Both the position numbers and the translations under genes were made by a program. 64,000 nt of DNA. It comes from Bacteroides sp. (GTDB lineage: Bacteria > Bacteroidota > Bacteroidia > Bacteroidales > Muribaculaceae). Shown here piece after piece: positions 14,083-32,175 of the stretch (positions are counted from its first letter, which is position 1; each line of letters begins with the position of its first letter). The notes under the pieces are model-generated. The model searched no databases and was not told where the DNA came from. It worked only from the letters and a program-made list of their open reading frames with translations. The DNA lies in contig JAAVCX010000007.1 of NCBI GenBank assembly GCA_014802105.1, positions 11,848 to 75,847 of the forward strand. Reading direction: 5' to 3'.

Positions 14083-15420
14083 TCAATGGTTGTTGCGGCC
14101 GATGCGGGCTTGGAGCTCGATGGTGCGCAGTGTGTCTTTATATGTGTTGTTGGAGTTGACTCGTTCGGGAGAGAGGGCGTGGTCAGTGTTGTCCTCCCAG
14201 CGTCGGCATAGGTAGAGCGACTCATAGATGCGGCTAATGGGGTAGTCACGGCTGATAGCCAAGGCCATGGCATAGTCTTCGCCGTAGCATACGTCGGGAA
14301 AGCCTATAGCGCGAGCTATAGGAGTGAAGAAAGCTCGCGGCGCTCCGAGACCATTGATGCGCAAGGCATTGTTCGGGCCGTTGGAGTCGGTCCATTCGGC
14401 ATGATTGATAAGTCCTGGGGGCAGGATATTGCCGTGGAAGTCGGTGAGTGTGTAGGAGCCTATGACCATGGCGCAGTTGTCGGCCCGAAATCGCTCGACT
14501 ATGAGGCTAAGAGAATCGGGTCGGCTGTATAGATCGTCACTGTCAAGCTGTATGGCAAAACGTCCGCAATGTGGATCGGCAAGGGCTATATTCCAGCATC
14601 CACCGATCCCCGGGGCTGTCGGTGATGATATGGAAGATGTGTCGATGACTATGAGCCTGGGGTCAGAAGAGGCCATGTCGGCGAGTATCTCGGAGGTGCC
14701 GTCGGTAGACCGGTTGTCGACGACAATGACGTTGAACGGGAAATCGGTGATTTGGGAAAGGGCTGAATTGACGGCATCGGCGATTGTGAGCCGACGGTTG
14801 CGCACAGGTATGATGACTGAGGCTTCGACCGGGAAGGAGCCTGCGGTGAGATCGAGGCTTAGACGTGACGCCGGAGTGACCAGGGCTCCGAGGGCGGCAA
14901 GATGAGCGGTCACTACCTGTTCCATCTCGAGCTGAGAGGCACGGTTGCGCGGATCGACATACGAGAAATGAGATTTTTCATTGTCTGCTGAAAGGTCTGA
15001 CTCCGGGCCTACGGAGTAGAGGGCCTCGGGCAGATGAAGGGGGAGTCCGGCGAGACGTGTGAGGTGCAGGCGCAGGTCGTACCACCCGGCGGCAAGGTAG
15101 TTGACATCTATGGTCGAGAGACATTCTCTGACAAGTCGGGCAGAGGCCACCACACAGTGACCGAAGTCAAAGTCGTCGCGCAGAGAGCCTGATTGATAAG
15201 CGATAGTGTTGCGACGGGTCTCCCCGTCATAGTAATCGCAGTAGGCAAACGGGGTGCCTGACCACTTGAGCGCCTGGGATATTCTGCCGAGAGCTCCGGG
15301 ATGCCAGGCTATGGAGCGATCGGAGAGAGGGATGACGACGTAATCGTCTGAAGTCATGGAGGCTATCTCGCGCATAGCCGCAGTGGAGAGTCGGGAATAA
15401 CGTTGGTTGAACACGCTCAT
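14083..15420 (-). CDS. Glycosyltransferase family 2 with an additional N-terminal module
   Basis: [26 protein letters not shown] ... [11 protein letters not shown]-terminal half also looks GT-A-like ([12 protein letters not shown]); start assigned to MSVFNQ. Confidence 0.75.
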
Positions 15421-15555
15421 GTTAACGGTCGGTTGATTTATCACAAAGGTATATAATCTGAGCGAGATGACAAAGCTGAGGTCTGAGAAAATCAAGGCCC
15501 TGAAGATCTGTCTTAAAAATTTGAGTCGATAGAATTGTATGTTAAAAAAAATGTG

Positions 15556-15563
15556 TAATTTTG
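15556..15563 (+). promoter_or_regulatory. Candidate -7 element (TAATTTTG) of the polysaccharide operon promoter
   Basis: Matches TAnnTTTG; about 130 bp upstream of the antiterminator ATG, leaving a leader with a small hairpin (GTGAG 15598-15602 / CTCAC 15610-15614). Confidence 0.45.
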
Positions 15564-15691
15564 TGGAACGCATAATTCTGTGTTCACTTCGGTCGTGGTG
15601 AGGAGCAAGCTCACTATCAGCCTGAGTAAACGGAAGTTTTTGGAAGTTTAATTACTCACGTTTCTTTAATTGCTTAGAGGTTAGGGTTTTA

Positions 15692-16741
15692 ATGAGTATT
15701 AAGCTTAGTAGAAGTATGTCTTCTAATGATTTTATGAGCAGGCTCGGAAGTAATGACGAGGTCTCGCGCTGGTATATCCTCAATCATATCGGGGGAGTAG
15801 GTGGGCAAGGTATTGCCCATCGCGAGATAGAGCGATTTAACTGTCAATCAAAGAGTGAGATAGAGCTGTTTTCCCCATCTTATTTCCAGTTGGAGGTCAG
15901 AGAGGGCAAGCAACGGTTTCGCCGTGTCAGTCTGGCCTATCATTACGTCTTTGTCAAGGGTACTCTCAACGAGATCAAGAGTCTATGTGGACGAGACAAC
16001 GGATTTTCCTTTGTGCTCAACCGCGCCAGCGAGGAACGTTATGCTACAGTCAGCGATAACGAAATGGCAGCCTTCCGCATCATAGCGCGCAGTTATGAGA
16101 ACTCCATGCCGTTTTTCTCGCTCGAGGATATTGATCTCGAGGCCGGAGATATAGTTGAGGTAGTCAATGGTGATTTTGCAGGTCTGAAAGGAACTTTCGT
16201 GCCGCGAAGCAAGAGCAACACCGGCAAGATAGTTCTCGAGATAGCAATGGGTAGCGGTACCTGTGCCTACAATATAAACGTCAAGGATGTCAGAGTAATC
16301 GAGTTTGCAAAAAAAACAACGCGAGCCCATGATCAGATCGAAGCCTTTGTGCCTCATCTGTTAACCGGACTGCGACAGTATAGCCGAGGAGAGCAGCTTG
16401 ACCGATCTATCGCCTCCAAAGTCTCGGTGTTTGCCTCGAGAATGGAAATCGTTGAACTTCACTCGCAGAAACTCGATGCCAAACTTCAGGCACTCCTTCA
16501 CGGAGCCTACACCCTATTGGGCGATCCCGAGCGAGCCGTCCGAAGTAAACGACTCTACGAGAAGTATCATCATTCTGTGACAAATCCTTGGACTCAAGCG
16601 CTCTGTGAGCTTGTAATAGCAGAATCCTCCCACGATAACACTCGCCTGAAAAGCATCAGTGACATCATTTCACTTCTGTCCCCCACTTCAAAATCCCAAC
16701 GTTTGATAGAGGAAGAGCTCAGATTGCTATTTTGTAGGTAA
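15692..16741 (+). CDS. NusG/UpxY-like transcription antiterminator with long C-terminal extension
   Basis: NGN-like start (WYILNHIGGVGG), YHYVFVKG, and KOW-like VEVVNGDFAGLKGTF; first gene of the polysaccharide locus. Confidence 0.78.
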   Translation: MSIKLSRSMSSNDFMSRLGSNDEVSRWYILNHIGGVGGQGIAHREIERFNCQSKSEIELFSPSYFQLEVREGKQRFRRVSLAYHYVFVKGTLNEIKSLCGRDNGFSFVLNRASEERYATVSDNEMAAFRIIARSYENSMPFFSLEDIDLEAGDIVEVVNGDFAGLKGTFVPRSKSNTGKIVLEIAMGSGTCAYNINVKDVRVIEFAKKTTRAHDQIEAFVPHLLTGLRQYSRGEQLDRSIASKVSVFASRMEIVELHSQKLDAKLQALLHGAYTLLGDPERAVRSKRLYEKYHHSVTNPWTQALCELVIAESSHDNTRLKSISDIISLLSPTSKSQRLIEEELRLLFCR

Positions 16742-16751
16742 GTTTCGTTAT

Positions 16752-18104
16752 ATGGAGCATGAGTCAAAACATATACCGTCAAAGGTTGGCCAGTTTTGTG
16801 CCAGTCCGCTCGTATTGTCTCTATTCAGTTTATTTGTGCTGATAGTGATCTCATTTATTTTTAAGTGGAATAGGGATATAGACTCTGATCTTAAAGCCGA
16901 TACCGACGTGATCGGTACATTCGGAGATTTCTTCGGAGGTGTGATAGGAACCATTTTTGCTCTTGTGAGTGTCTATTGGATGGCAGAAGCATTCAAACAG
17001 CAGCGAGATGAGTCGAAAAGCAGCCGTAGACAGGTTGATGAAAACCATCGTCAGCTCGAAGTCCAGCGCTTCAATGAACTGTTTTTCGAGCTCTTGAGAA
17101 TGTATCAATACATAGTCTCGGATCTAAACGGGACGGTTTATAGAGTTTTGCCTGAAGAGGTCGGGAATGGAGGCAGGAAATTTACGGAAGAAGTATATGA
17201 TAATAAAGACTTCTTCGACGTGGAAAAAAGAAAGTTACAGAAGAAGTTTGTGCCTGATCCTAACTTGAAACAATCTCAGATTAACGCAACTTCAGAGTAT
17301 CTGGATTTTTATGCCAGAAATCCTAAACTGGGAGCATATTACAGAGTGCTCTTCCGTATTTTTGAGATGATCAATCGTCAGTCAGAAGCGATCAGGAATA
17401 AATCAAAAGATGTTTTTCTCACACGCTCAGATATTCGAGATTATATCAAGATTGTCAGAGCTCAGTTGACTGAGAGTGAGTTGTTCTTCTTACGTTACAA
17501 TGCTCTGACTCCTTACGGGACACGTTTTGCACCGTTGATCGACCGTTTCAATCTTCTCAAACATCTTGCACCATTTGATTTACTTGAGTATAAATCAATA
17601 TGGTCTAAACTCTCGACAGTGGAGGCCGGATATATGAATATTCATTACCGATTGTTGAAACGCGAGATAATGAGCACGCTTCACAACTTTGACAAAGATG
17701 AACAGAAAGGTGGAGATCATCCCCATCAGCGTCGCAGGTATAAAGGTCGAGGAGCGGTGAAATATAATATAATTGTTGACGCTCCATCCAAAACTGAAGT
17801 GTCGGTTTCTCTAATACAAAATAACGACATAGGTTTTACTGCACGGGAATTTGAGCCCTTTGATAAATTTGATATAAAAGAACTTACGGCAATATTAGGG
17901 CATTTCTGTTACGAAATCTTCATTCATTCTCATCTCAAGCGTGGTCATGAGCTAAGATTGAAAATCAGAAATGTACTTGAAACCGTGACTACCTATAAGG
18001 ATGGAGAGAAAATTGATAAATATACTATAAAGTTTCTGATAACCAGCAAAGATTCAACGCCACTGATCAATCGGTTCCCACATATAACATATTGGGATAA
18101 TTGA
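16752..18104 (+). CDS. Putative phage abortive infection protein (AbiC-like, PF16872-like) membrane protein
   Basis: Two N-terminal TM helices with FGDFFGGVIGTIFALVSVYWMAEAF, then QRFNELFFELLRMYQ, a signature arrangement of this family. Confidence 0.65.
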   Translation: MEHESKHIPSKVGQFCASPLVLSLFSLFVLIVISFIFKWNRDIDSDLKADTDVIGTFGDFFGGVIGTIFALVSVYWMAEAFKQQRDESKSSRRQVDENHRQLEVQRFNELFFELLRMYQYIVSDLNGTVYRVLPEEVGNGGRKFTEEVYDNKDFFDVEKRKLQKKFVPDPNLKQSQINATSEYLDFYARNPKLGAYYRVLFRIFEMINRQSEAIRNKSKDVFLTRSDIRDYIKIVRAQLTESELFFLRYNALTPYGTRFAPLIDRFNLLKHLAPFDLLEYKSIWSKLSTVEAGYMNIHYRLLKREIMSTLHNFDKDEQKGGDHPHQRRRYKGRGAVKYNIIVDAPSKTEVSVSLIQNNDIGFTAREFEPFDKFDIKELTAILGHFCYEIFIHSHLKRGHELRLKIRNVLETVTTYKDGEKIDKYTIKFLITSKDSTPLINRFPHITYWDN

Positions 18105-18161
18105 TGAGACTATGTCTCTATCCAAGCGTAGAAGAACTCTTGACAAGGATAACGATGATAT

Positions 18162-19691
18162 ATGACATCCACAGCAGAAAACAATAAACGTATCGCCAAA
18201 AACACCCTGATGCTTTATTTCAGGATGTTTATTATAATGGGAGTTACGTTATATACATCACGTATAGTCCTTGAACAACTTGGAGTCGAAGATTATGGAG
18301 TTTATAATCTTGTAGCAGGAATAATCGTTTTATTTTCATTCATAACCAATTCATTACAATTAGCTTCGCAACGATTTTTTTCGTATGAGCTTGAGAACTC
18401 TGAGACTAAAGATATAACGTCAATCTTTAAATCGTCGGTTAAATTATATTTTATATTTTCAATCATATTTGTTATTGCATGTCAAACGGTTGGGTATTGG
18501 TTATTAATTACAAAATTAAACATACCGATCGAACGCAAGAGTGTTGCGATATGGGTATATGAAATATCAATTCTTACTGGTGTCATATCAATATTCAGAG
18601 TCCCGTACAATGCTCTTATAATAGCATATGAGGAGATTGCTATATATGCGAAATATAGTATATATGAAGTGATTTTAAAGGTAGGATCAATAGTCCTATT
18701 AATATTAATCGATTTAGATAAGTTGATATTGTATACTATTTTAGTTGCTGTATCAACTGTTCTCACAAATCTAATATATATATATTATTGTCACAGAAAA
18801 TTACTGACCAATTATTTCTCAGTTCAGCCTCATAGGGAAGTAATGAGGAAGATGTTGTCTTTTTCTGGTTGGATGTTAATGTTGGGTGTGGCAAATGTGT
18901 CGGCAACTCAAGGAGTTAATTTTATACTGAATATAGCTTACGGTGTTGTCGTAAATGCTGCTATAGGCGTTGCCAATCAGGTAAATTCGGCTGTCAATCA
19001 ATTTGTCTCTAATTTCCAGACATCACTAACTCCACAGCTGATAAAATCCTATGCAGCTAATAACTTTCAACAGTTATATTATCTATTGTTCACAGGTAGT
19101 AGGTTATCATTCTATTTATTGCTGATCTTGTGTTGGCCCATTATTTTAAATATAGATATTATACTGTCCTTATGGCTTAAAATTGTACCGCCTTATACTT
19201 CATCAATTGTTATATGGGTATTAGTTTATGCACTGGTTGATACGTTTGTTAATCCAATAGCAATAGTTGTTCATGCTACGGGCAATATAAAAAAATATCA
19301 ATTCATAGCCACAATATTTATTATATCGATAATCCCTATATGCTATGGATGTATTAATTTGGATATGGCTCCATGGATTGTCTTTATGATGCGTGCCGCT
19401 ATAAATGTGTTTTCACTGATCTGGCGTATTTACTATATGCACGACACAATACAAATGTCTATCAGGGATTATTGTAAATTCGTCATGCTCCCATGTGTTA
19501 AAATTCTATTATTATCCGGACTACTTTTTCTTATAATATATAATGGTTGTGATGAAATTACACGTCTGATCATATCCATCTGTTGTCTTATCGTAGTGTT
19601 AATGCCCATGGTTTATTTTGTAGGATTGAATAGATCCGAGCAGATGTTTATAAAAAAGACGGTTTTAAAAATATTACATAAAAATGGATAG
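18162..19691 (+). CDS. Oligosaccharide flippase (Wzx/MATE-like)
   Basis: Multiple TM segments; NTLMLYFRMFIIMGVTLYTSRIVLEQLGVEDYGVYNLVAGIIVLF is typical of Bacteroidetes flippases. Confidence 0.88.
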   Translation: MTSTAENNKRIAKNTLMLYFRMFIIMGVTLYTSRIVLEQLGVEDYGVYNLVAGIIVLFSFITNSLQLASQRFFSYELENSETKDITSIFKSSVKLYFIFSIIFVIACQTVGYWLLITKLNIPIERKSVAIWVYEISILTGVISIFRVPYNALIIAYEEIAIYAKYSIYEVILKVGSIVLLILIDLDKLILYTILVAVSTVLTNLIYIYYCHRKLLTNYFSVQPHREVMRKMLSFSGWMLMLGVANVSATQGVNFILNIAYGVVVNAAIGVANQVNSAVNQFVSNFQTSLTPQLIKSYAANNFQQLYYLLFTGSRLSFYLLLILCWPIILNIDIILSLWLKIVPPYTSSIVIWVLVYALVDTFVNPIAIVVHATGNIKKYQFIATIFIISIIPICYGCINLDMAPWIVFMMRAAINVFSLIWRIYYMHDTIQMSIRDYCKFVMLPCVKILLLSGLLFLIIYNGCDEITRLIISICCLIVVLMPMVYFVGLNRSEQMFIKKTVLKILHKNG

Positions 19692-20787
19692 ATATTTTAG
19701 GTTTATAGAGGCTTCTGTCAGAGGTTCTGCCTGTAACATGAAGTGTAACTATTGTTATGTTGCTCAAAGGTATGATCCTGATATGAAAGATGTCGGGGTT
19801 TTTAAATATCCACCAGAGGTAATAGGAAAAGCTCTCCGTAAGGAAAGGATAGGAGGAACAGCCTATGTAAATATTTGTGGAGAAGGTGAAACTCTTCTTG
19901 CAAAAGAGGTGCCTGAAGTGATAAAACATATACTTTTACAAGGACACTTTGTCAATGTATATACAAATGGCACATTAACACAACGTTTTAATGAGATTCT
20001 CGATGTTGTTCCTAAAGAATTATTATCGCATTTATCGTTTGCGTTCTCATTCCATTATTTAGAACTTAAGAGACTAAATAAACTCGAAGTATATTTTGAG
20101 AATTTCAATAAGATGAAAAAGGCTGGATGTTCAGTCGTTTCAAACATGGTTTTAGATGATAAGTATTTACCATACGTTGAGGAAATAAAGAATGTAACAA
20201 AAGCCAATATCGGAGCATATCCCCAGATCAGTTTCCCAAAGAAGCATAATGATAATTCTAATTGGACTGCATTAACTGACGACGAAGAAACGTTAAAAAA
20301 AATCGGAGAGGGTTTTCATTCCAATTATTTGGATTTTACAGAAAAATATTTCGATTATGATCGAAAACAATTCTGTTATGCGGGTAAATGGAGCTTTACA
20401 TTAGAGCTAACGACAGGAGATATAGCCAGATGTTATAATTATAGGCCACATCAGAATATATTTGAAAATACGGATAGTAAAATTAAATTATTTCCAATTG
20501 GTAACACATGCTCATGCAAGGCATGTGGAGGAGGCCTTTTCTTACCACAGGGTGTAGTGCCATCGTTAGGTGCCCCTTCTTATATCTATGTAAAAAACAG
20601 AGAAGAGGCTAATTGGTATACACCCATATATAAACAATTTCTTGAACAACAGTTAATACTGAACAACAAACAGTATGGACAGCTGAAAAAGACACTGATT
20701 AATGCTCTAAACCCAATTGTTAATTTCGCAGGTTTGTTAAGAGCCGGAAAACGAAGGATTTGTAATAGGCTTAAAAATGGAAAATAA
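19684..20787 (+). CDS. Radical SAM protein in polysaccharide locus
   Basis: CNMKCNYC (CxxxCxxC) cluster motif; additional C-terminal cysteines (FCYAGKW, ARCYNY, CSCKAC) suggest an auxiliary Fe-S site. Confidence 0.88.
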   Translation: MDRYFRFIEASVRGSACNMKCNYCYVAQRYDPDMKDVGVFKYPPEVIGKALRKERIGGTAYVNICGEGETLLAKEVPEVIKHILLQGHFVNVYTNGTLTQRFNEILDVVPKELLSHLSFAFSFHYLELKRLNKLEVYFENFNKMKKAGCSVVSNMVLDDKYLPYVEEIKNVTKANIGAYPQISFPKKHNDNSNWTALTDDEETLKKIGEGFHSNYLDFTEKYFDYDRKQFCYAGKWSFTLELTTGDIARCYNYRPHQNIFENTDSKIKLFPIGNTCSCKACGGGLFLPQGVVPSLGAPSYIYVKNREEANWYTPIYKQFLEQQLILNNKQYGQLKKTLINALNPIVNFAGLLRAGKRRICNRLKNGK

Positions 20788-21745
20788 TAAGATTGTATCC
20801 TCTCTGAGAAATAATATCTTTGATACACTTTCGCCATTGCTTTCCAGGCGAGTTTTATTGACCGATCTTCCCTACCACGATAATTTGGGTGATGTGTTGA
20901 TCTGGAAGGGTGAAATTGATTTCTTGAAAAAGAATAAAACAGACTTGTTGGAATCATCTTCAGTTTTTACATTTACTTTTCCTGATGTTGACAAAGATGT
21001 GACAATTCTTCTACATGGGGGAGGAAATTTTGGAGACTTATATGGCGATTTTCATAGTTTCAAAAAGAAAGTAATAGCTCATTATCCTAACAATCGCATT
21101 GTGATGTTCCCACAGTCGGTATGGTATGAGAATGAGTCGCTTATAGAAGAGGATGCCAGGGCTTTTGCACAGCATAAAGATTTATATCTTTGCGCAAGAG
21201 ATCAGTGGAGCTACAATTTTTTTAAAGCGCATTTTGGGGCCAATAATATATTGCTTGTACCTGATATGGCTTTCTGCATCAGTGATGAGATATTGGCACC
21301 TTACAGAGGAAAGGAGATCGGAAAAAATCTTTTTTTCAGAAGACTCGATAAGGAACTGACTAACTCAACTCCTCAGAGTCTGGGACAGGAATGTGAGGTG
21401 CGTGACTGGCCTACTGTTGAGGAAAAGCCCCGCAGATTTTACTATTTCGACAAGGCTTACAGTGTTGCCCGCCGACTTAAAAGATTTAAGCATGTCAATC
21501 ATGCCGTAAACCATTGTATAGATTGGCTTGCCGACATTCTGATAAGAGATAAGCTTGTAAGGACAGGGTGTGAGTTTCTATCTCCTTATTCGTTGATTAT
21601 CACTACCCGGTTGCATGCAATGATATTGTCGGTATTACTTTATAAGAAAGTAGAATATATCGATAACTCCACCGGCAAACTCTCGGCTTTCGCCGAGACA
21701 TGGCTTCAGGAGCTTGACTCGGTAAAAAAATTCCAGAATGACTAA
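20777..21745 (+). CDS. Polysaccharide pyruvyl transferase family protein
   Basis: DNLGDVLIWKGEIDFL, LLHGGGNFGDLYGD, TTRLHAMILSVLL motifs (PF04230). Confidence 0.88.
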   Translation: MENNKIVSSLRNNIFDTLSPLLSRRVLLTDLPYHDNLGDVLIWKGEIDFLKKNKTDLLESSSVFTFTFPDVDKDVTILLHGGGNFGDLYGDFHSFKKKVIAHYPNNRIVMFPQSVWYENESLIEEDARAFAQHKDLYLCARDQWSYNFFKAHFGANNILLVPDMAFCISDEILAPYRGKEIGKNLFFRRLDKELTNSTPQSLGQECEVRDWPTVEEKPRRFYYFDKAYSVARRLKRFKHVNHAVNHCIDWLADILIRDKLVRTGCEFLSPYSLIITTRLHAMILSVLLYKKVEYIDNSTGKLSAFAETWLQELDSVKKFQND

Positions 21746-22774
21746 ATCAAATAGGATCATACCCCTTGAAGCATTACGGTTTTTAATAATGTTTCAGATC
21801 TGTCTGTGGCATTTTGATGATTGCCTTGACAACATGGAGGCAGGATATCTTGGTGTAGAATTTTTCTTCATTCTGTCGGGTATATTTATTTATAAGAGCG
21901 TGCTCGGTGGCAATAGTGACGGTGTAATTTCATTTACGATCAATCGTGTGAAAAAATTCTATCCGGCTTATGTCACAGCAGTAGTGCTGGCATACGGTTT
22001 ATTTTTTCATAGCCAGATTCGTGAGCTGTTTATGATCAACCCTATTCATGAGTGCTTGAGGTTTTGTTCGCAACTACTTATGATACAGAACGTTGGAATT
22101 GTTCAAGGGGGGGGGTAAATCTGCCACTTTGGTTCTTCTCTGTCTATGTATATGGAGGAGCATTTGTATATGCACTGACAAAGTATTACACCAACATAAG
22201 CATCCGAATTGTGTTTCCGATCATCTCTGCTCTGTTTTTCTCGTATGTTTTTAAATTTCAGACAGGCCCGGGTTTGGAATTATGGAGTATGGTTGGCCCT
22301 TTCCCGATGCCGTTGATGAGAGGTGTCGTTGAGATTGCTTTCGGAGTAATGACAGGTTATATCTTATTTAATTATCAGGAAAAGATTTTTTCCAGATCAA
22401 AGCTATTGGATCTGTTGTCGGTCGTTTCAATGGTCGCATATTTTTCAATAGTTTTCGGTAGCGATCTGGATGCCCCTTACTCATTACTGCTGATTCCCGT
22501 AATGATAGCAGGAGTCATGAACCCGGTGTCAAAGATTGGCCGACTGTTGAGTCAGAGACTCTGGTTGAAATTAGGCTCATTGACGTTTGATATGTTCCTT
22601 ATTCATTGGCTACTTGTCATGACAATCAAGCCGTTGGGAATAAGATTGGATGTGAGCCTTGAGACACAGTTGGTGGTATATATATTGATATTGATACCTG
22701 TTTCAATAGGATTCAGGTATTTTGTAAAAATGTTAAATTCAATAGTCGCGTTTATTGGAAATGTCATCAGATAA
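21738..22774 (+). pseudogene. Acyltransferase family 3-like membrane protein, frame-disrupted at a G9 tract (candidate phase-OFF allele)
   Basis: ORF 21738-22118 (IPLEALRFLIMFQICLWHF...YLGVEFFFILSGIFI) stops immediately after GGGGGGGGG; the continuation NLPLWFFSVYVYGGAFVYALTKYY... is in another frame to 22774; adding one G gives a 345-aa ORF. Confidence 0.88.
22109..22117 (+). repeat. Poly-G simple sequence repeat (G9) followed by TAAATCT
   Basis: Sequence gttcaaGGGGGGGGGtaaatctgcc read directly; sits inside coding sequence (start/end approximate to 1-2 nt). Confidence 0.9.
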
Positions 22775-23726
22775 TAGAGTGAAAGTATCGGTTCTTGTCC
22801 CGGTCTATGGAGTGGAAAAGTATATAGAGCGTTGTGCGCGCTCACTTTTCGAGCAGACCATGAAGGATGGTATTGAATTTATTTTCACCGATGATTGTAC
22901 TCGAGATAGAAGTATAGAGATACTTGAGAAGGTACTGGAAGAGTATCCTGAAAGGAAATCTCAGGTAAAGATCATACATCATGAAAAAAACCAGGGTCTC
23001 GTGTCGGCACGCGTGACGGGACTTAAAGAAGCTGTCGGTGAATACGTGATACACTGCGACAGTGACGACTGGGTCGAGAGAGAGATGTATGAGATAATGT
23101 ATCGTCAGGCCAAGGATACTGACAGCGATATAGTGGTCTGTGATTTCTTGGAGGGTGATGATACTCTTGAGGTATACAGGCATCAGAATATTCCTGAATC
23201 AAGAATCAGTATATTCAAGTCAATCCTTGATGGAACTCTCCACGCCGCTATGTGGAACAAGATGCTGTCACACCGGCTGATAGATAGGCTCGGTGTAAAG
23301 GTAAATCCTGAAATCAATATGTGGGAGGATATGGCCTATATGACTCCTCATCTTCTATCGGGATGTAGAATGACAAAGGTGGACAAGGCTTTATATCACT
23401 ATGTGTGTGTGCAGGCTTCAATGTCAAGGACATTTTCTCTGCGTTCTGTAAACTCTCAGATCAAGGCTGTCGATAATATATCGGGATATGTAGAAGCTGA
23501 TCCGGAGTTAAGCACAATACTCTCACTCTTAAAGTTGAAATCCAAGGATTATTTTCTGCTGAGAGGAGAATCCTATAATCCGGCCCTCTGGAGACAGACA
23601 TTCCCCGAGGCTAATAAAGAGATCCTGAATGAAAACATACCACCTGTAAAGAGGTTGCTTTATTACTTGTGTGAAAAGCATCTTGATTTTGCGGTAAAGC
23701 TACTTGCCGGCTTACGGAAAAAGTAA
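22761..23726 (+). CDS. Glycosyltransferase family 2
   Basis: VSVLVPVYGVEKYIERCARSLFEQT, FIFTDDCTRDRS, HCDSDDWVE. Confidence 0.9.
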   Translation: MSSDNRVKVSVLVPVYGVEKYIERCARSLFEQTMKDGIEFIFTDDCTRDRSIEILEKVLEEYPERKSQVKIIHHEKNQGLVSARVTGLKEAVGEYVIHCDSDDWVEREMYEIMYRQAKDTDSDIVVCDFLEGDDTLEVYRHQNIPESRISIFKSILDGTLHAAMWNKMLSHRLIDRLGVKVNPEINMWEDMAYMTPHLLSGCRMTKVDKALYHYVCVQASMSRTFSLRSVNSQIKAVDNISGYVEADPELSTILSLLKLKSKDYFLLRGESYNPALWRQTFPEANKEILNENIPPVKRLLYYLCEKHLDFAVKLLAGLRKK

Positions 23727-23747
23727 TTATTCATCCAGCCACACGGA

Positions 23748-24833
23748 ATGTTACCATATTATATCATTACGGCTCTGTTGCTTATTGCCGGAGTTGTGTC
23801 ATTGGATCAAAAGACCAGAAAATATGATTTTGTGGTTCTTCTGTTCCTATGTGTCATAGTGACGATCTTCAGCGGATGTCGTGCGTGTGGATGGGATTAT
23901 GATTCTTATCTGGCGCATTTCAAGAGTCTACCTGATATTCTGAATTTCTCGAGAACTCAGAATACGATGGAGGCAGGCTATGAGGTATTTGCAAGTTTTT
24001 GTAAAAGTGTTTTCCACAATTATAATGCGTTCTTATTTATATTTGCTGCGATAAATGTTTTTGTTATAGGATGTCTTTGCAGGAAATATTCCCCTAATCC
24101 GGTGCTGTCGTTTGTATTGTTCTGCGGGTTCTCACTATTTGGACAATTGATGGGACAGATGCGTCAGCCTCAGGCTATTTGTCTGACTTATCTGATCACC
24201 CTTCCGCTACTGATCAGAAATATGCGCTGGAGAGTCGCAATATGGACAATAGTGATAGGGGTGTTACTTCATAAGTCGTCGTTGCTGATGGCTATTTTGT
24301 TGCCATTCGCGAATATCAGGTATTCTGACAAGACGTGTGCAATTGCCGCAATAGTCTGTATAGTTTCAGTTGTAACATCAAGCATGTTGACAAATCTGCT
24401 ATATATTGTGGTTCCAAAAGGTTTTTACCTCTATGATACGATGGTTGCATATATGACCTACCTGTCCCAGAAAGTTTCCTTTACGTTCGGCATGCTCGAG
24501 CGAGTCGGTCTTCTTGTCCTCTGCTGGTATTATGGCCGGAAGTACAAGTTATATGATAGGAATATCTTTTTTAGGATAATGATGAATTTATTTGCGATGG
24601 GTGTGCTGATCTATTTCTCTTTTATGCAGATAGCACCCGAATTTGCTTCCCGTGGTACAAAAGGCCTATATTTCTGTATAATTTTCATACTGCCGATTTT
24701 AATCAAAAACGCTAAGAGGAGAGATAAGAGTTTTCTCTCGATATTCACGATACTTTGGATCTCATATCTGTATATTACTTTCCTTATTAATCCGCCGGAA
24801 CTATATAATCCTTATCTATCGGTTTTGGATTAA
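23748..24833 (+). CDS. EpsG family protein, candidate polysaccharide polymerase
   Basis: Polytopic membrane protein; GCRACGWDYDSYLAHF and LMGQMRQPQAICLTYLI resemble EpsG/Wzy. Confidence 0.8.
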   Translation: MLPYYIITALLLIAGVVSLDQKTRKYDFVVLLFLCVIVTIFSGCRACGWDYDSYLAHFKSLPDILNFSRTQNTMEAGYEVFASFCKSVFHNYNAFLFIFAAINVFVIGCLCRKYSPNPVLSFVLFCGFSLFGQLMGQMRQPQAICLTYLITLPLLIRNMRWRVAIWTIVIGVLLHKSSLLMAILLPFANIRYSDKTCAIAAIVCIVSVVTSSMLTNLLYIVVPKGFYLYDTMVAYMTYLSQKVSFTFGMLERVGLLVLCWYYGRKYKLYDRNIFFRIMMNLFAMGVLIYFSFMQIAPEFASRGTKGLYFCIIFILPILIKNAKRRDKSFLSIFTILWISYLYITFLINPPELYNPYLSVLD

Positions 24834-24851
24834 GAAAAAGAATTGTTACTT

Positions 24852-25967
24852 ATGAAAATCGCATATACAATCTCCGGATTATATAATTCGGGGGGCATGG
24901 AGAACATACTTCTTCAGAAGGCCAATTATCTTGCTGAAGTGTATGGTCATGATGTCACTATAATCACTACTGATCAGAAAGATAAATCCATATTCTTCAA
25001 GATTTCGCCAAAGGTCAGAGTAATTGACCTTAATATCAACTATAATGATGCGGTCAGTTCAAGATTCTGGCTTCTTAAGAAGCCAAGGTTGGTGAAAAAA
25101 CATAAGGAACGGCTCTCTGATCTGTTGTGTCGTGAAAAGTTTGATGTCTGCATCTCGCTGATGGATTTTGATTTTGAGTTTCTCACTTCAATCAAGGACG
25201 GGAGTAAAAAAGTAGCGGAGTATCATTTTTCAAGGTATGCTAAAGTTTTGTCTTCAAAAAATATCGTCGCGAAATTATTGCAACGATACAGGACGGATTA
25301 TTGGAAATCCATATTGAGAGGATTTGATAAATTCATAGTCTTGACAGAACAGGATAAAGACCAATGGGGAGACATGTCAAATATTGAGGTGATCCCCAAC
25401 TTTATAAATTTTTTCCCTGACATTTCATGCAATCCCGAATCATGTAAGATAATATCTGTCGGACGTATGGAGTATCAGAAAGGGTATGATATGCTGATCG
25501 AAGCATGGAAGATTGCAAAAGATGAGCTGCCGGGATGGACTCTGTCGGTTTATGGAGGTGGAGACCGATCCTTATATGAACAAAAAATTAAAGAAGACAA
25601 TGTTGATAGAATTACGTTCAATCCTCCGGTCTCGTCGATAGGTGAAGTGTATAGCGAAAGTTCGTTATATGTGATGAGCTCCCGATATGAAGGATTGCCA
25701 CTGGTGCTTTTGGAGGCTATGAGTTACGGCTTGCCGATTGTCTCTTTTGAATGTCCGTGTGGGCCGAGAGATATTTTGCGTCCCGATTTCGGTAGATTGG
25801 TCAAACCAGATGATGTCAAGGCTTTGGCTCAAACTATTGTTGAGAGTGCCAAAGATCTGACTTGGAGACAGAATGCTGTCACAGAGGCTAAACGCCGGAG
25901 CAGGATGTTTTCTAAAGATATTATTATGGAAAAGTGGAATAATCTTTTTATTTCGTTGGAAAAATGA
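24852..25967 (+). CDS. Glycosyltransferase family 4
   Basis: SGGMENILLQKANYLAE N-terminus; SVGRMEYQKGYDMLIEAW; SSRYEGLPLVLLEAMSYGLPIVSFECPCGPRDI. Confidence 0.92.
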   Translation: MKIAYTISGLYNSGGMENILLQKANYLAEVYGHDVTIITTDQKDKSIFFKISPKVRVIDLNINYNDAVSSRFWLLKKPRLVKKHKERLSDLLCREKFDVCISLMDFDFEFLTSIKDGSKKVAEYHFSRYAKVLSSKNIVAKLLQRYRTDYWKSILRGFDKFIVLTEQDKDQWGDMSNIEVIPNFINFFPDISCNPESCKIISVGRMEYQKGYDMLIEAWKIAKDELPGWTLSVYGGGDRSLYEQKIKEDNVDRITFNPPVSSIGEVYSESSLYVMSSRYEGLPLVLLEAMSYGLPIVSFECPCGPRDILRPDFGRLVKPDDVKALAQTIVESAKDLTWRQNAVTEAKRRSRMFSKDIIMEKWNNLFISLEK

Positions 25968-26872
25968 TTAGTGTTATTATACCTGTATATAATGGTGTCA
26001 GATTTATCAGGCAATGCTACGAATCACTGATTAAACAGACTATTGAGGAATGGGAGGCTGTTTTTATCGATGATGGTAGCTCTGATGACTCTTTTGATGA
26101 ATTAAAAAAACTATCTGAATCAGATCCAAGGGTAAAAATTATCCATAAAAACAACGAGGGAGTAGCCGTTGCAAGAGAAGTCGGCATAAGGGAGGCAAAG
26201 GGAGAATATGTTACTTTTCTTGATGTTGATGATACTCTCGTAGACTCGGCGCTCGAACAGTTTGTCGTGCATTTTGACCATGAAGATACCGACATGGTTG
26301 TTGCCGGTATCAATATGGTTTCCGAAAATAGCGTCCTGCTTCGTAAGATATATTACAGGAACATGGTTATTTCGGGGAGTGAGTGTGTGGATCTGATGTG
26401 TATAGGATTGTTAAGATGGCAATTGTGTGGAAAAGCATTTAGAACCACGGTGATAAAGACAGCTCTGACTCCTCGAGGATTGAGGAGCGCTGAGGATATG
26501 GCGGTATGTGTGCAGGCTGCTCTGAAGTCGCGAGTGGTGAATGTGTTGAACACATGTCTCTACAATTATGTTCAGGTGGCAACATCCGTGACTCATTCCA
26601 AAGCTCTTGAGATCTCAAAGGATGCCCTTGAGGCAGCGAGATTTGTAAAAAGAACTGTTGGTGCCGAAATGAATCCTATATCACTCGATTGTCTCTTCCT
26701 GTTGATTACTTCAACGGCTCTGAGAGCCGGTATATCGGTTGATGATGAGAATTTCAGAGAGACCGTCGATGAGCATGGTCGCTTGAAATCAATTCGTCAG
26801 TTGCCATTGCTGAAGGCTGTTAGCGTCGGTCTGTATCGGTTCTTCAATATAAATCTGGCAAGATTCTTATGA
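25964..26872 (+). CDS. Glycosyltransferase family 2
   Basis: ISVIIPVYNGVRFIRQCYESLIKQT, FIDDGSSDDS, FLDVDDTL. Confidence 0.9.
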   Translation: MISVIIPVYNGVRFIRQCYESLIKQTIEEWEAVFIDDGSSDDSFDELKKLSESDPRVKIIHKNNEGVAVAREVGIREAKGEYVTFLDVDDTLVDSALEQFVVHFDHEDTDMVVAGINMVSENSVLLRKIYYRNMVISGSECVDLMCIGLLRWQLCGKAFRTTVIKTALTPRGLRSAEDMAVCVQAALKSRVVNVLNTCLYNYVQVATSVTHSKALEISKDALEAARFVKRTVGAEMNPISLDCLFLLITSTALRAGISVDDENFRETVDEHGRLKSIRQLPLLKAVSVGLYRFFNINLARFL

Positions 26873-27824
26873 AAAAGCTTTGTTATTTGATTTTGGCTCA
26901 TAACAATCTTGATTATGTAGCAGACCTGATAGAATCGCTTTCGTCTGATAATGTGGGTTTTATTGTGCATATAGATTCAAAATGCAGTGAATCGCGGAAG
27001 CCTGTTGAAGAGATAAGCAATAGAAGGAATGTAAAATTATTGGAGGATAGGAAAGATATTCTTTGGGGAGGGAAATCTATGGTTGACATTGTTAATCAGA
27101 TGAGTAGATTGGCTCTTGACGATAATTTGAAATATGATTATTTTATATTGTTGTCAGGTCAGGATATGCCGGTCAAATCTTCTGAATATATTTTAAACTA
27201 TTTAGAAACCAATGGCTATAAGAATTATTTGGCAGCCGGTCGAATGATGACTGCTGAGTGTGTGTGGCAGGAACAGGGTCGACGCAGGTTGGAGTGTTAT
27301 GCTGTCAGATTAGGACAGAGAGAAATAGCTACGATTGAACCGGGATGCTTGAATTATAATAACTTAAGGCAGATATTTAAAACTTTTTTATATGGTGATA
27401 GGGCTTCAATATTAAGTATGGTAAAAGCCCTGTTTTCAGCAAGAAGATCAGGTTTGGGTATTGTGCCTTATGGAGGAGAGTTTTGGTGGAGAATGAATCG
27501 CAAATCTTTGAAGACAATAATAGATTACTATGATTCACATCCTGAACTTGACAAGGAACTGTCTTATACTTCAAATCCGGATGAGATTGTATATAATACG
27601 TTAGCATATAATCTTTGCGATAATATTGAAAACAATCTGTTAACCTATGTTAAATGGGGGGGGGTAAATCTCCCGATTGGATAACTAAAAGTGATAAATC
27701 ACTGGTAACAGATCTTATTTTGCAGGAAAATATCCTGTTCTGTAGGAAAGTGAAGGATCGGGAGTTATTAGGGAATGTTATGGATTATCTCAGAAATCAA
27801 AAATCAGTACCAAAAATTAATTGA
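26869..27824 (+). pseudogene. Beta-1,6-N-acetylglucosaminyltransferase-like (GT14, core-2/I-branching family), frame-disrupted at a G9 tract (candidate phase-OFF allele)
   Basis: ORF 26869-27684 (LCYLILAHNNLDYVADLIESL, YFILLSGQDMPVKS) ends VKWGGVNLPIG*; the +1-base frame continues GKSPDWITKSDKSLVTDLILQENILFCRKVKDRELLGNVMDYLRNQKSVPKIN* to 27824, a plausible family C-terminus. Confidence 0.87.
27656..27664 (+). repeat. Poly-G simple sequence repeat (G9) followed by TAAATCT
   Basis: Sequence gttaaatGGGGGGGGGtaaatctccc read directly; inside the GT14-like gene. Confidence 0.92.
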
Positions 27825-27829
27825 GAATT

Positions 27830-28648
27830 ATGCCGTTTTCTGTCTTGATGTCGCTCTATATAAAAGAGAACCCTGACTATCTGCGCCAGAGTCTTGACAG
27901 CGTTTTTAACCAGACTTTACCGCCCGATGAAGTTATATTGGTAGAGGATGGGCCGCTTACAGAGGATTTATATTCGGTATTGGATATATACGAGCAGAAA
28001 TATCCTCAGTTCAAACGTGTCAGGATCCCGGTCAATGGCGGTCTTGGCAAGGCATTGAACGAGGGACTGAAGCATTGTTCGAATGAGCTGGTCGCACGAA
28101 TGGATACTGACGATGTTTGTTTCCATGACCGTTTCGAGAAACAAATCGATTATATGAATTCTCATCCCGAAATAGCAGTGTCGAGCGGATGGATTGAGGA
28201 ATTTGAGAATGATATTGACAATGTGCGGTCTGTTAAGCGTGTTCCGGAGACTCCGGATGAAGTAAAAAGATATGGTGTCAAGAGATGTCCTTTGAATCAT
28301 CCTGCTGTGATACTTAGAAAAAGTGTTGTTGAATCGGTCGGAGGATACATACATTTTCCGCTTTTCGAAGATTGGTATCTCTGGGCGAGGTTGATGTCTC
28401 ATGGTTATAAACTCGGGAATATTCAGGCCCCTGTATTATATTTTAGGGTCAGCCCTGAAATGTATAGGAGAAGAGGCGGTCTCAAATATGCCAAAGACAG
28501 TTTTAGATTTCAGCGCAAACTCAAGGAACTTGGTCTTATATCAGGCTTTCAGGTAGTGAAATATGGTGTTATTAGAGGGCTGGTATATATGATGCCTAAC
28601 TTCATGAGACGTTTCGTATACAGGAACTTTTTGAGAAGACAGCACTAA
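27830..28648 (+). CDS. Glycosyltransferase family 2
   Basis: FSVLMSLYIKENPDYLRQSLDSVFNQTLPPDEVILVEDGPLT; ARMDTDDVC; start at ATG 27830 (listed ORF opens with TTG). Confidence 0.9.
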   Translation: MPFSVLMSLYIKENPDYLRQSLDSVFNQTLPPDEVILVEDGPLTEDLYSVLDIYEQKYPQFKRVRIPVNGGLGKALNEGLKHCSNELVARMDTDDVCFHDRFEKQIDYMNSHPEIAVSSGWIEEFENDIDNVRSVKRVPETPDEVKRYGVKRCPLNHPAVILRKSVVESVGGYIHFPLFEDWYLWARLMSHGYKLGNIQAPVLYFRVSPEMYRRRGGLKYAKDSFRFQRKLKELGLISGFQVVKYGVIRGLVYMMPNFMRRFVYRNFLRRQH

Positions 28649-28696
28649 AGTATCTGCTTGACGCGTTTATTATAAAATAATACCATTGCTTCGGAC

Positions 28697-29593
28697 ATGA
28701 AAGGAATAGTTCTCGCCGGGGGGTCCGGCACACGGTTGTATCCCATAACCAAGGGGGTTAGCAAGCAGTTGCTCCCGATTTATGACAAACCGATGGTCTA
28801 TTATCCCATTTCGACGCTGATGCTGGCGGGTATCAGGGATATTTTGATCATCTCCACCCCCTCCGATCTCCCCGGGTTCAAGCGTCTGCTTGGCGACGGT
28901 AGCGACTACGGTGTTCACTTCACTTATGCCGAGCAGCCTTCGCCCGATGGTCTTGCCCAGGCTTTTATAATTGGTCGCGACTTCATTGGCGACGATGCGG
29001 CATGTCTCGTCCTCGGTGACAATATTTTCCATGGAGCCGGCTTCTCGGGGGTGCTCAAGGAGGCGGTCAGGACTGCTCAGGAGCAATCCAAAGCCACAGT
29101 CTTCGGCTATTGGGTCAACGACCCCGAGCGCTACGGCGTGGCTGAATTTGACACTGCCGGCAACTGTCTCTCTATCGAAGAAAAGCCCGAGCATCCCAAG
29201 AGCAACTACGCCGTGGTCGGTCTCTATTTCTATCCCAACAAGGTGGTCGATGTCGCCGCATCCATTAAGCCCTCCGCCCGCGGAGAGCTTGAGATCACCA
29301 CAGTCAATCAGGAGTTCCTCAAAGACGGTGAGCTCAAAGTCCAGACTCTCCCACGAGGATTTGCGTGGCTCGATACCGGCACTCACGACTCTCTGGCCGA
29401 AGCCTCTATCTATGTCGAAGTGCTTGAGAAGCGTCAGGGTCTCAAGATAGCCTGTCTCGAGGGTATAGCTTATGCCAACGGCTGGATTACCGCCGACAAG
29501 CTCCGTGAGCTCGCCGGGCCGATGCTTAAAAACCAATATGGACAGTATCTCATGAAGATAGCCGACGAAGGTTGCCTCCAGAAGTTTGATTGA
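28697..29593 (+). CDS. rmlA: Glucose-1-phosphate thymidylyltransferase
   Basis: [37 protein letters not shown]. Confidence 0.97.
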
Positions 29594-29620
29594 TTTCCAC
29601 TATCTCACCAATCGATCATC

Positions 29621-30169
29621 ATGAATGTCATTTCTACTGATATAGAAGGGGTGTTTATCATCGAACCCCGTATCTTCCGCGACGCCCGCGGCTATTTCTT
29701 TGAGAGCTACTCCAAGCGAGATTTTGACGAGAAGGTTGGCTCTGTCGACTTTGTTCAGGACAACGAGTCCTGCTCCTCTCGCGGTGTCATGCGCGGTCTC
29801 CACTTCCAATGCCCTCCTTACGCTCAGGCTAAACTCGTGCGCTGTGTCAAAGGTTCAGTACTCGACGTCGCAGTCGACCTTCGCACCGGTTCCCCAACTT
29901 ATGGTAAGCATGTCGCCGTCGAACTCTCCGAGCACAACCATCGCCAGTTCTTTATCCCTCGCGGGTTCGCTCACGGTTTTGCCGTGCTTTCCGACATAGC
30001 CGTCTTCCAGTATAAGTGTGACAACTATTATCATCCGGAAGCCGACGGAGGTATCTCCATCACCGATCCCTCTCTCGGCATAGACTGGTGCATAGACCTT
30101 TCCGAAGCCATCCTCTCCGATAAAGACCTGCGTCATCCACTACTCAAAGACTTCACTTCGCCCTTCTGA
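29621..30169 (+). CDS. rmlC: dTDP-4-dehydrorhamnose 3,5-epimerase
   Basis: EPRIFRDARGYFFESY, RGVMRGLHFQ, FIPRGFAHGF. Confidence 0.97.
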   Translation: MNVISTDIEGVFIIEPRIFRDARGYFFESYSKRDFDEKVGSVDFVQDNESCSSRGVMRGLHFQCPPYAQAKLVRCVKGSVLDVAVDLRTGSPTYGKHVAVELSEHNHRQFFIPRGFAHGFAVLSDIAVFQYKCDNYYHPEADGGISITDPSLGIDWCIDLSEAILSDKDLRHPLLKDFTSPF

Positions 30170-30179
30170 ACACCCTGCC

Positions 30180-31052
30180 ATGAGAATACTTGTCACCGGA
30201 GCCAACGGACAGCTTGGCCGCTCCATCCGCGATGCCGCCGCCGGCTCCCCCAATGAATATATTTTCACTGATGTCGATGACATCGACATCACCGATCCCG
30301 AGGCGGTCAGTCTTGCCGTCAGTGTCAACTCTTTTGATGCGATAGTCAATTGTGCCGCCTATACCGATGTCGAACGGGCTGAGTCTCAGCCCGAGATAGC
30401 CCGGCTCATCAATGCTACCGCCGTTGGCTATCTCGCTCAGGCTGCTGCCAAGGCCGGAATACCGCTCATTCACGTCTCTACCGACTACGTCTTTGGCGGA
30501 AATCTCAACAATACTCCCTGCTCCGAGGATCAGACACCCAACCCTACAGGCGTCTACGGTGTCACAAAGCTCCAGGGCGAGCAAGCCATCATCGAGAGCG
30601 GATGTCGCTATCTGATCTTCCGCACGGCATGGTTATATTCCGAATATGGCAAAAACTTCGTCAAGACCATGTTCGATCTCACATCATCCAAGCCGCGGCT
30701 CAATGTCGTCTTCGACCAGTGTGGCACTCCCACCTACGCCGCAGATCTCGCCCGAGCCATAGTCTCTGTCATCGACGGAGGACTTATTGATGGAAACGAA
30801 GGTATCTACAACTATTCCGACGAGGGAGTCTGCTCCTGGTATGACTTCACCAAGGCAATTGCCCGGATGGCCGGAAACGATAGTTGTGACATTCAGCCCT
30901 GCCATAGTGATGAATTTCCATCAAAGGTAGTGCGTCCTGCCTACTCGGTGCTCGACAAGACCAAGTTCAAGGATACCTTCCATCTCCCCGTTCCTTATTG
31001 GTCCGACTCACTTCTCACCTGTATCATCAATCTGAAATCCAATGAAGCGTAA
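30180..31052 (+). CDS. rmlD: dTDP-4-dehydrorhamnose reductase
   Basis: MRILVTGANGQLGRSI, STDYVFGG, YGVTKLQGEQA. Confidence 0.96.
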   Translation: MRILVTGANGQLGRSIRDAAAGSPNEYIFTDVDDIDITDPEAVSLAVSVNSFDAIVNCAAYTDVERAESQPEIARLINATAVGYLAQAAAKAGIPLIHVSTDYVFGGNLNNTPCSEDQTPNPTGVYGVTKLQGEQAIIESGCRYLIFRTAWLYSEYGKNFVKTMFDLTSSKPRLNVVFDQCGTPTYAADLARAIVSVIDGGLIDGNEGIYNYSDEGVCSWYDFTKAIARMAGNDSCDIQPCHSDEFPSKVVRPAYSVLDKTKFKDTFHLPVPYWSDSLLTCIINLKSNEA

Positions 31053-32175
31053 CATACTAATCACCGGTGGTGCCGGCTTTATAGGAAGCCATGTGGTACG
31101 CCTTTTTGTAAATAAATACCCTGACTATCATATAGTCAATCTTGATAAACTCACCTATGCCGGCAACCTTGCCAACCTCAAGGATATCGAGGATTGTCCC
31201 AACTACACTTTCGTACGTGCCGACATAGCCGAACTCGACGAGATGCGTCGCATCATAAAGGAGTATGAGATCTCCGGCATAATCCATCTCGCGGCCGAGA
31301 GTCATGTCGACCGTTCCATCAAGGATCCATTTACCTTCGCCCGCACCAATGTCATGGGCACTCTCGCTCTCCTTCAGGCAGCTAAGGAATACTGGGAGTC
31401 TCTCCCCGAAAAGTATGAAGGTAAGCTCTTCTACCACATCTCTACCGACGAGGTCTACGGTGCTCTCGAACTCACTCATCCCGAGGGAGTTCCAGCTCCC
31501 TTTACCACCAAAGCCTCCTCTGACAACGATATGGCCTATGGCACCGAGTTTTTTCTCGAGACCACCAAATACAATCCTCATTCACCCTATTCGGCATCAA
31601 AGGCCTCGAGCGACCACTTCGTGCGTGCCTATCACGACACTTACGGAATGCCTACACTTGTGACCAATTGCTCCAACAACTATGGGCCCTATCAGTTCCC
31701 TGAAAAGCTGATACCCCTGTTTATCAATAATATCCGTCAAGGCAAACCGCTCCCTGTCTATGGCAAGGGCGAAAACGTTCGCGACTGGCTTTTCGTTGAA
31801 GATCATGCGCGTGCCATAGACTTGATTTTCCATAAAGGCAAAGTTGCCGAGACCTATAACATCGGAGGTTTCAACGAGTGGAAAAATATCGACCTTATCA
31901 AGGTTATCATCAGCACGGTAGACCGTTTGCTCGGCAACCCTGAGGGGCAAAGCGAAAAACTCATCACCTTTGTTACCGATCGTCTCGGCCACGACATGCG
32001 CTATGCTATCGATTCGCGTAAACTCCAGAGCGAACTCGGATGGGAACCATCTCTTCAGTTTGAGGAAGGCATTGAAAAGACTGTCAGATGGTATCTCGAC
32101 CATCAGGAATGGATGGACAACATCACTTCGGGTGACTATGAGCGCTACTACGACGACATGTATAAAAACCGTTGA
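31042..32175 (+). CDS. rmlB: dTDP-glucose 4,6-dehydratase
   Basis: ILITGGAGFIGSHVVRLFVNKYPDYHIVNLDKLTYAGNL, HLAAESHVDRSI, YSASKASSDH. Confidence 0.97.
   Translation: MKRNILITGGAGFIGSHVVRLFVNKYPDYHIVNLDKLTYAGNLANLKDIEDCPNYTFVRADIAELDEMRRIIKEYEISGIIHLAAESHVDRSIKDPFTFARTNVMGTLALLQAAKEYWESLPEKYEGKLFYHISTDEVYGALELTHPEGVPAPFTTKASSDNDMAYGTEFFLETTKYNPHSPYSASKASSDHFVRAYHDTYGMPTLVTNCSNNYGPYQFPEKLIPLFINNIRQGKPLPVYGKGENVRDWLFVEDHARAIDLIFHKGKVAETYNIGGFNEWKNIDLIKVIISTVDRLLGNPEGQSEKLITFVTDRLGHDMRYAIDSRKLQSELGWEPSLQFEEGIEKTVRWYLDHQEWMDNITSGDYERYYDDMYKNR

Follow-up and report, generated by a model that had tools for sequence, protein, structure and literature searches.

Polysaccharide cluster and the interrupted acyltransferase gene

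The window, i.e., the whole stretch of 64,000 nucleotides that was analysed, comes from a gut-dwelling member of the Muribaculaceae and carries a polysaccharide cluster on its forward strand (Table 1). The cluster encodes an UpxY-like antiterminator (a match under the curated cut-off of the UpxY family), a putative flippase named by sequence features alone, a radical SAM protein, a pyruvyl transferase, an acyltransferase, an EpsG-type polymerase, several more glycosyltransferases, and RmlA, RmlC, RmlD and RmlB. Apart from two genes broken at G tracts, its reading frames are open. The gene at 16752-18104, which separates the UpxY-like gene from the polysaccharide genes, encodes a putative phage abortive infection protein (PF16872, E=6e-18).

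As assembled, the acyltransferase gene is OFF: its acyltransferase-3 reading frame runs into nine consecutive Gs (switch 1) that are followed directly by an in-frame TAA (...GGAATTGTTCAA GGGGGGGGG TAA ATCTGCCACTTTGG...). Frame computation gives 126 codons before this stop, whereas a tract of 7 or 10 would extend the frame to 344 or 345 codons, respectively, with its end at 22774. An earlier note on this DNA had the gene stopping right after nine Gs, which we confirmed, and had the frame restored by one added or two removed Gs, with 346 codons for one added G; the arithmetic is right, the count being 345 codons plus the stop. Its view that both sides are intact also holds, as the 219 downstream codons are open and the two PF01757 matches adjoin in the profile across the tract (positions 4-97 upstream and 113-318 of 326 downstream; the upstream half scores 27.5 bits, under the 31-bit cut-off on its own, and the downstream half 34.8 bits).

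Members of the acyltransferase-3 family (PF01757) possess an R/K-X10-H motif near the N terminus, and an R-X10-H motif is present here (RFLIMFQICLWH at residue 14). Intact relatives, 334-346 residues long, can be aligned to both halves. At a tract length of 7 the alignment to a relative is gapless (QNVGIVQ-GG-VNLPLWFFS against QNIGPFYGGINTPLWFFS), and at a length of 10 the protein has one glycine more than in the ungapped alignment. The product of the G9 state is a truncated membrane enzyme, presumably inactive. Judging by its protein family, the full-length enzyme would transfer an acyl group to the polysaccharide, a modification that would be lost in the OFF state.

Table 1. Features of the two tract-bearing genes and their host cluster (window positions)
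Feature	Position	Strand	Basis
Host polysaccharide cluster	15692..32175	+	gene content, Pfam matches
Acyltransferase-3, upstream part, 123 codons, R-X10-H at residue 14	21738..22106	+	PF01757 4-97, E=2e-6
Switch 1, G9 tract	22107..22115	+	sequence
OFF-state stop, TAA abutting the tract, in frame at G9	22116..22118	+	sequence
Acyltransferase remainder, 219 codons + stop, other frame, without internal stops	22115..22774	+	PF01757 113-318, E=1e-8; 41-43% identity to intact relatives
Core-2/I-branching-type glycosyltransferase, upstream part	26869..27655	+	PF02485 E=2e-19; 53% identity to G043 homologue
Switch 2, G9 tract; consensus frame ends a few codons on, at 27684	27656..27664	+	sequence
Branching glycosyltransferase, conserved C-terminal part, another frame	27663..27824	+	conserved in G043 homologue

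A second G9 tract in the same cluster

The sole other run of at least seven Gs in the window, absent from the earlier note, is likewise a G9 and lies in the same cluster, within a core-2/I-branching glycosyltransferase gene. This tract shifts reading out of the frame of the conserved C-terminal part (GKSPDWI...ILFCRKVKD), which is conserved in the homologue from genome G043, a related species of another genus. From the protein family, loss of branching would be predicted when this gene is OFF. Beyond the frame break at the tract, neither the acyltransferase nor the branching glycosyltransferase contains a second lesion. We considered an internal promoter at this tract, where GTTAAC-N4-GTTAA precedes the G9, and rejected it for want of a TAnnTTTG box at the usual distance.

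Tract frequency in the window and the genome

Synonymous shuffling of 41 window genes (50 kb) gave an expectation of 0.010 G/C runs of at least nine, whereas two were observed (Poisson p ~5e-5). The intact window genes contain zero runs of 7 or 8 G/C, and GGG accounts for 12.5% of glycine codons in the cluster. A shuffle based on G7 words gave 6.05 expected and 6 observed; with overlapping words counted, it says little about run length. Genome-wide, pattern searches recovered three tracts of G9 or longer, two of them in this cluster, after exclusion of an artefactual run at the end of a contig; the clustering of both tracts (p ~2e-4) is an optimistic estimate, as the cluster bounds were set after the tracts had been seen. 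At the end of contig C25 of genome G000, near 84560, C/G runs reach up to 32, probably a sequencing or assembly artefact.

Tract lengths at matching sites in related genes

A search of the GTDB genome collection with the acyltransferase returned just three relatives (42-44% identity), all of them encoded in MAGs of Muribaculaceae or Bacteroidales; one, from a Duncaniella MAG, matches a genome in the window's genus. None of these three known relatives has a tract at the switch-1 codon, so no length variant of this site is available among them. No copy of the locus was found in viral contigs.

Length differences were recovered at other sites. The G043 homologue of the branching enzyme is OFF too, where a G8 occupies the same codon and gives a different wrong frame, and the G043 acyltransferase homologue has a G8 further along the gene, in frame (ON). 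Within the polysaccharide clusters of G043, two paralogues of an unnamed gene differ at one site, with C9 in one (ON, 426 aa) and C8 in the other (OFF), and the C tract contains the one single-base gap of their alignment. Two polysaccharide regions of ~28 kb in that genome hold five tracts (p = 1e-4, assuming an estimated 55 tracts in G043). In a further genome, G215, two copies on contigs C2 and C5 (L159 and L161) are identical over flanks of 1171 + 1259 bp (2.4 kb) and differ only in G9 vs G10. The G043 length differences are the strongest evidence for slippage, whose occurrence in living cells is suggested by same-site differences in related genes.

Poly-G/C tracts across the Muribaculaceae

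We surveyed tracts of at least 8 in six Muribaculaceae genomes. Among the 41 intragenic tracts outside the window, 29 leave the gene ON and 12 OFF, the OFF share being 8/13 for 9-mers and 4/28 for 8-mers. The higher OFF share of longer tracts fits slippage, but would also be expected if longer runs were misassembled more often.

The OFF genes include a Pfam-confirmed TonB-dependent SusC-type receptor with a G9 within its signal peptide (L148, genome G130) and a type I restriction HsdS gene split by a G9 between its two recognition domains (L113, G043 contig C11), which is a candidate for phase-variable specificity. Tract-bearing genes in the ON state include those for a cytidylyltransferase, a hexapeptide acetyltransferase and secreted proteins, the last with the tract in the region that encodes the signal peptide. 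The targets (surface glycan enzymes, receptors, secreted proteins, HsdS) belong to the classes of gene that usually phase-vary.

Several other tract-bearing genes were recorded. Two SusC-like genes of G130 with C8 tracts (L146 and L076), one OFF and one ON, were judged by reading only. Tandemly arranged genes (L135, L155) whose products look like phage tail or fibre proteins carry G8 or G9 in several members; the one tail-like gene scanned gave no family match, the relatives of a tract-bearing one had no run of at least seven Gs, and phage records yielded two weak matches. A lipoamide dehydrogenase gene of G215 (L136) is OFF at a G9 and is more likely to be misassembled, or a spare copy in decay, than to be a switch, and because of this case some length calls are suspected to be errors.

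Sequences following the tracts

A TAA directly follows 1-2% of G3-G6 runs and 45-51% of runs of 8-9, in a sample partly chosen by a TAA-containing pattern. With pattern-chosen tracts left out, TAA follows 16/31 tracts on the coding strand vs 1/19 on the antisense strand of an ORF (p = 7e-4). A purely mutational origin of G8-TAA was rejected on the absence of the bias from these antisense tracts. The bias, a post hoc observation on a small sample, would fit selection for an instant stop after slippage.

The flank G9-TAAATCT(G/C)CC recurs in the family, with 16 matches vs 6 when the pattern is reversed; most occurrences of the flank are at intergenic sites that resemble promoters. We dismissed a mobile or recombination element as the source of this shared flank; within ORFs it reads Gly-Gly-Val-Asn/Lys or Gly-Gly-Lys, and no element is needed. 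The intergenic promoter-like class comprises 29 sites (e.g., L071, L077, L083, L087, L090) with two TTAA boxes, G8-10, TA(A/G)TTT and TAnnTTTG. The TAnnTTTG box most often lies 19 bp past the tract, which places the poly-G at the -33 position.

Proposed slippage switching and alternative explanations

All tract lengths were taken from assemblies, and a miscalled length at the acyltransferase is possible. Errors are frequent in homopolymers, the draft genome (39 contigs) shows an artefactual run at the end of one contig, and in another genome the lipoamide dehydrogenase is OFF at its tract, all of which would favour an assembly or base-calling error, with the true length in frame and the gene simply ON in the population. 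We nevertheless consider such an error unlikely. The A8 runs at 16309 and 20295 sit within genes that remain open, the tracts are improbable at whatever called length, and the paralogue and homologue differences stem from a separate genome; even with one length miscalled, a run so long would be expected to slip. Less probable still is ordinary decay, in which the acyltransferase and the branching enzyme would be pseudogenes, each broken once by a one-base indel. The broken ORFs and the intact state of the tract-free acyltransferase relatives agree with decay. It would, however, require two separate breaking events that each fell on an improbable G9 run of the same cluster, in genes free of any other lesion. 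Differences also remain biased by codon position downstream of each tract, although at such divergence this bias reflects mostly long history, not recent constraint.

Long homopolymers can provoke polymerase slippage, and programmed transcriptional or ribosomal slippage could let a gene with a fixed G9 still make some enzyme of full length. This explanation is compatible with all results of the analysis, yet we assign it only a very small probability: a programmed site should hold its length, whereas G043 has a G8 in its branching enzyme and tracts of unequal length in its paralogues, and in-frame versions of such genes exist.

In our assessment, the switch-1 G9 tract is probably a poly-G contingency locus. 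Candidate poly-G phase variation had been proposed in the earlier note, and the proposal gains support from the second switch of the cluster, from length differences in another genus and between paralogues, and from the family tracts. Slipped-strand mispairing in replication would add or remove Gs. The acyltransferase is in frame only at tract lengths of 3k+1, and in the assembled G9 state translation stops at the abutting TAA, giving a truncated enzyme. The branching glycosyltransferase tract follows the same arithmetic, so that up to four coats (acylated or not, branched or not) could arise in one lineage, presumably to the benefit of the cell.

We conclude that the switch-1 locus is probably one of a family-wide set. 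A wider proposal, which we put forward as a possibility short of probable, is that the Muribaculaceae possess a large, unreported set of genes switchable by poly-G/C tracts (glycan enzymes, SusC-type receptors, secreted proteins and a restriction specificity gene), in which coding-strand tracts are selected for a following TAA, together with separate promoters bearing poly-G at -33 that are perhaps also length-variable. If true, some assembled glycan and receptor genes that resemble pseudogenes are really switchable, and single-enzyme coat changes arise in each population, which is possibly relevant to phage and antibody escape.

Comparison with known phase-variable systems

Slippage switching is known from Neisseria as well as from Campylobacter. 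In Campylobacter, glycan genes are routinely switched by poly-G tracts (PMC4965091, PMC6437147), with cgtB as one example (PMC6437147), and C. jejuni NCTC11168 carries 29 poly-G/poly-C tracts of 7 or more (PMC4965091). The loci described here resemble those of C. jejuni in having G/C runs of 8-11 in surface-glycan ORFs, a one-base change of frame between ON and OFF, and several switches per genome. They differ in belonging to a Bacteroidota lineage, in being known from assemblies alone, and in that coding-strand tracts often abut a TAA (16/31).

Acyltransferase-3 genes are also known to phase-vary, as in Haemophilus influenzae oafA and Salmonella oafB, the latter switching epigenetically according to a review (PMC9558356). 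These enzymes share the PF01757 family, the modification of a surface polysaccharide and ON/OFF expression with the gene studied here, for which both properties are predicted from sequence; unlike in Salmonella oafB, we propose that tract length sets the state.

A search of open-access titles and abstracts found no report of homopolymer switching in Muribaculaceae or other Bacteroidetes. A 2025 review describes Bacteroides capsule switching as DNA inversion (PMC11868660). For the cluster promoter, a search for exact inverted repeats in 15300-16000 recovered only one chance-like 10-nt pair, 448 nt apart. The invertible capsule promoters of Bacteroides fragilis (PMC11868660) belong to the same taxonomic order and, like the switching proposed here, bring random polysaccharide variation in clusters headed by an UpxY-type gene; there, whole loci are flipped by inversion, whereas here single enzymes within one locus would be switched by tract length. 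Overall, the mechanism and the target class are established elsewhere, and the lineage appears to be new for slippage switching.
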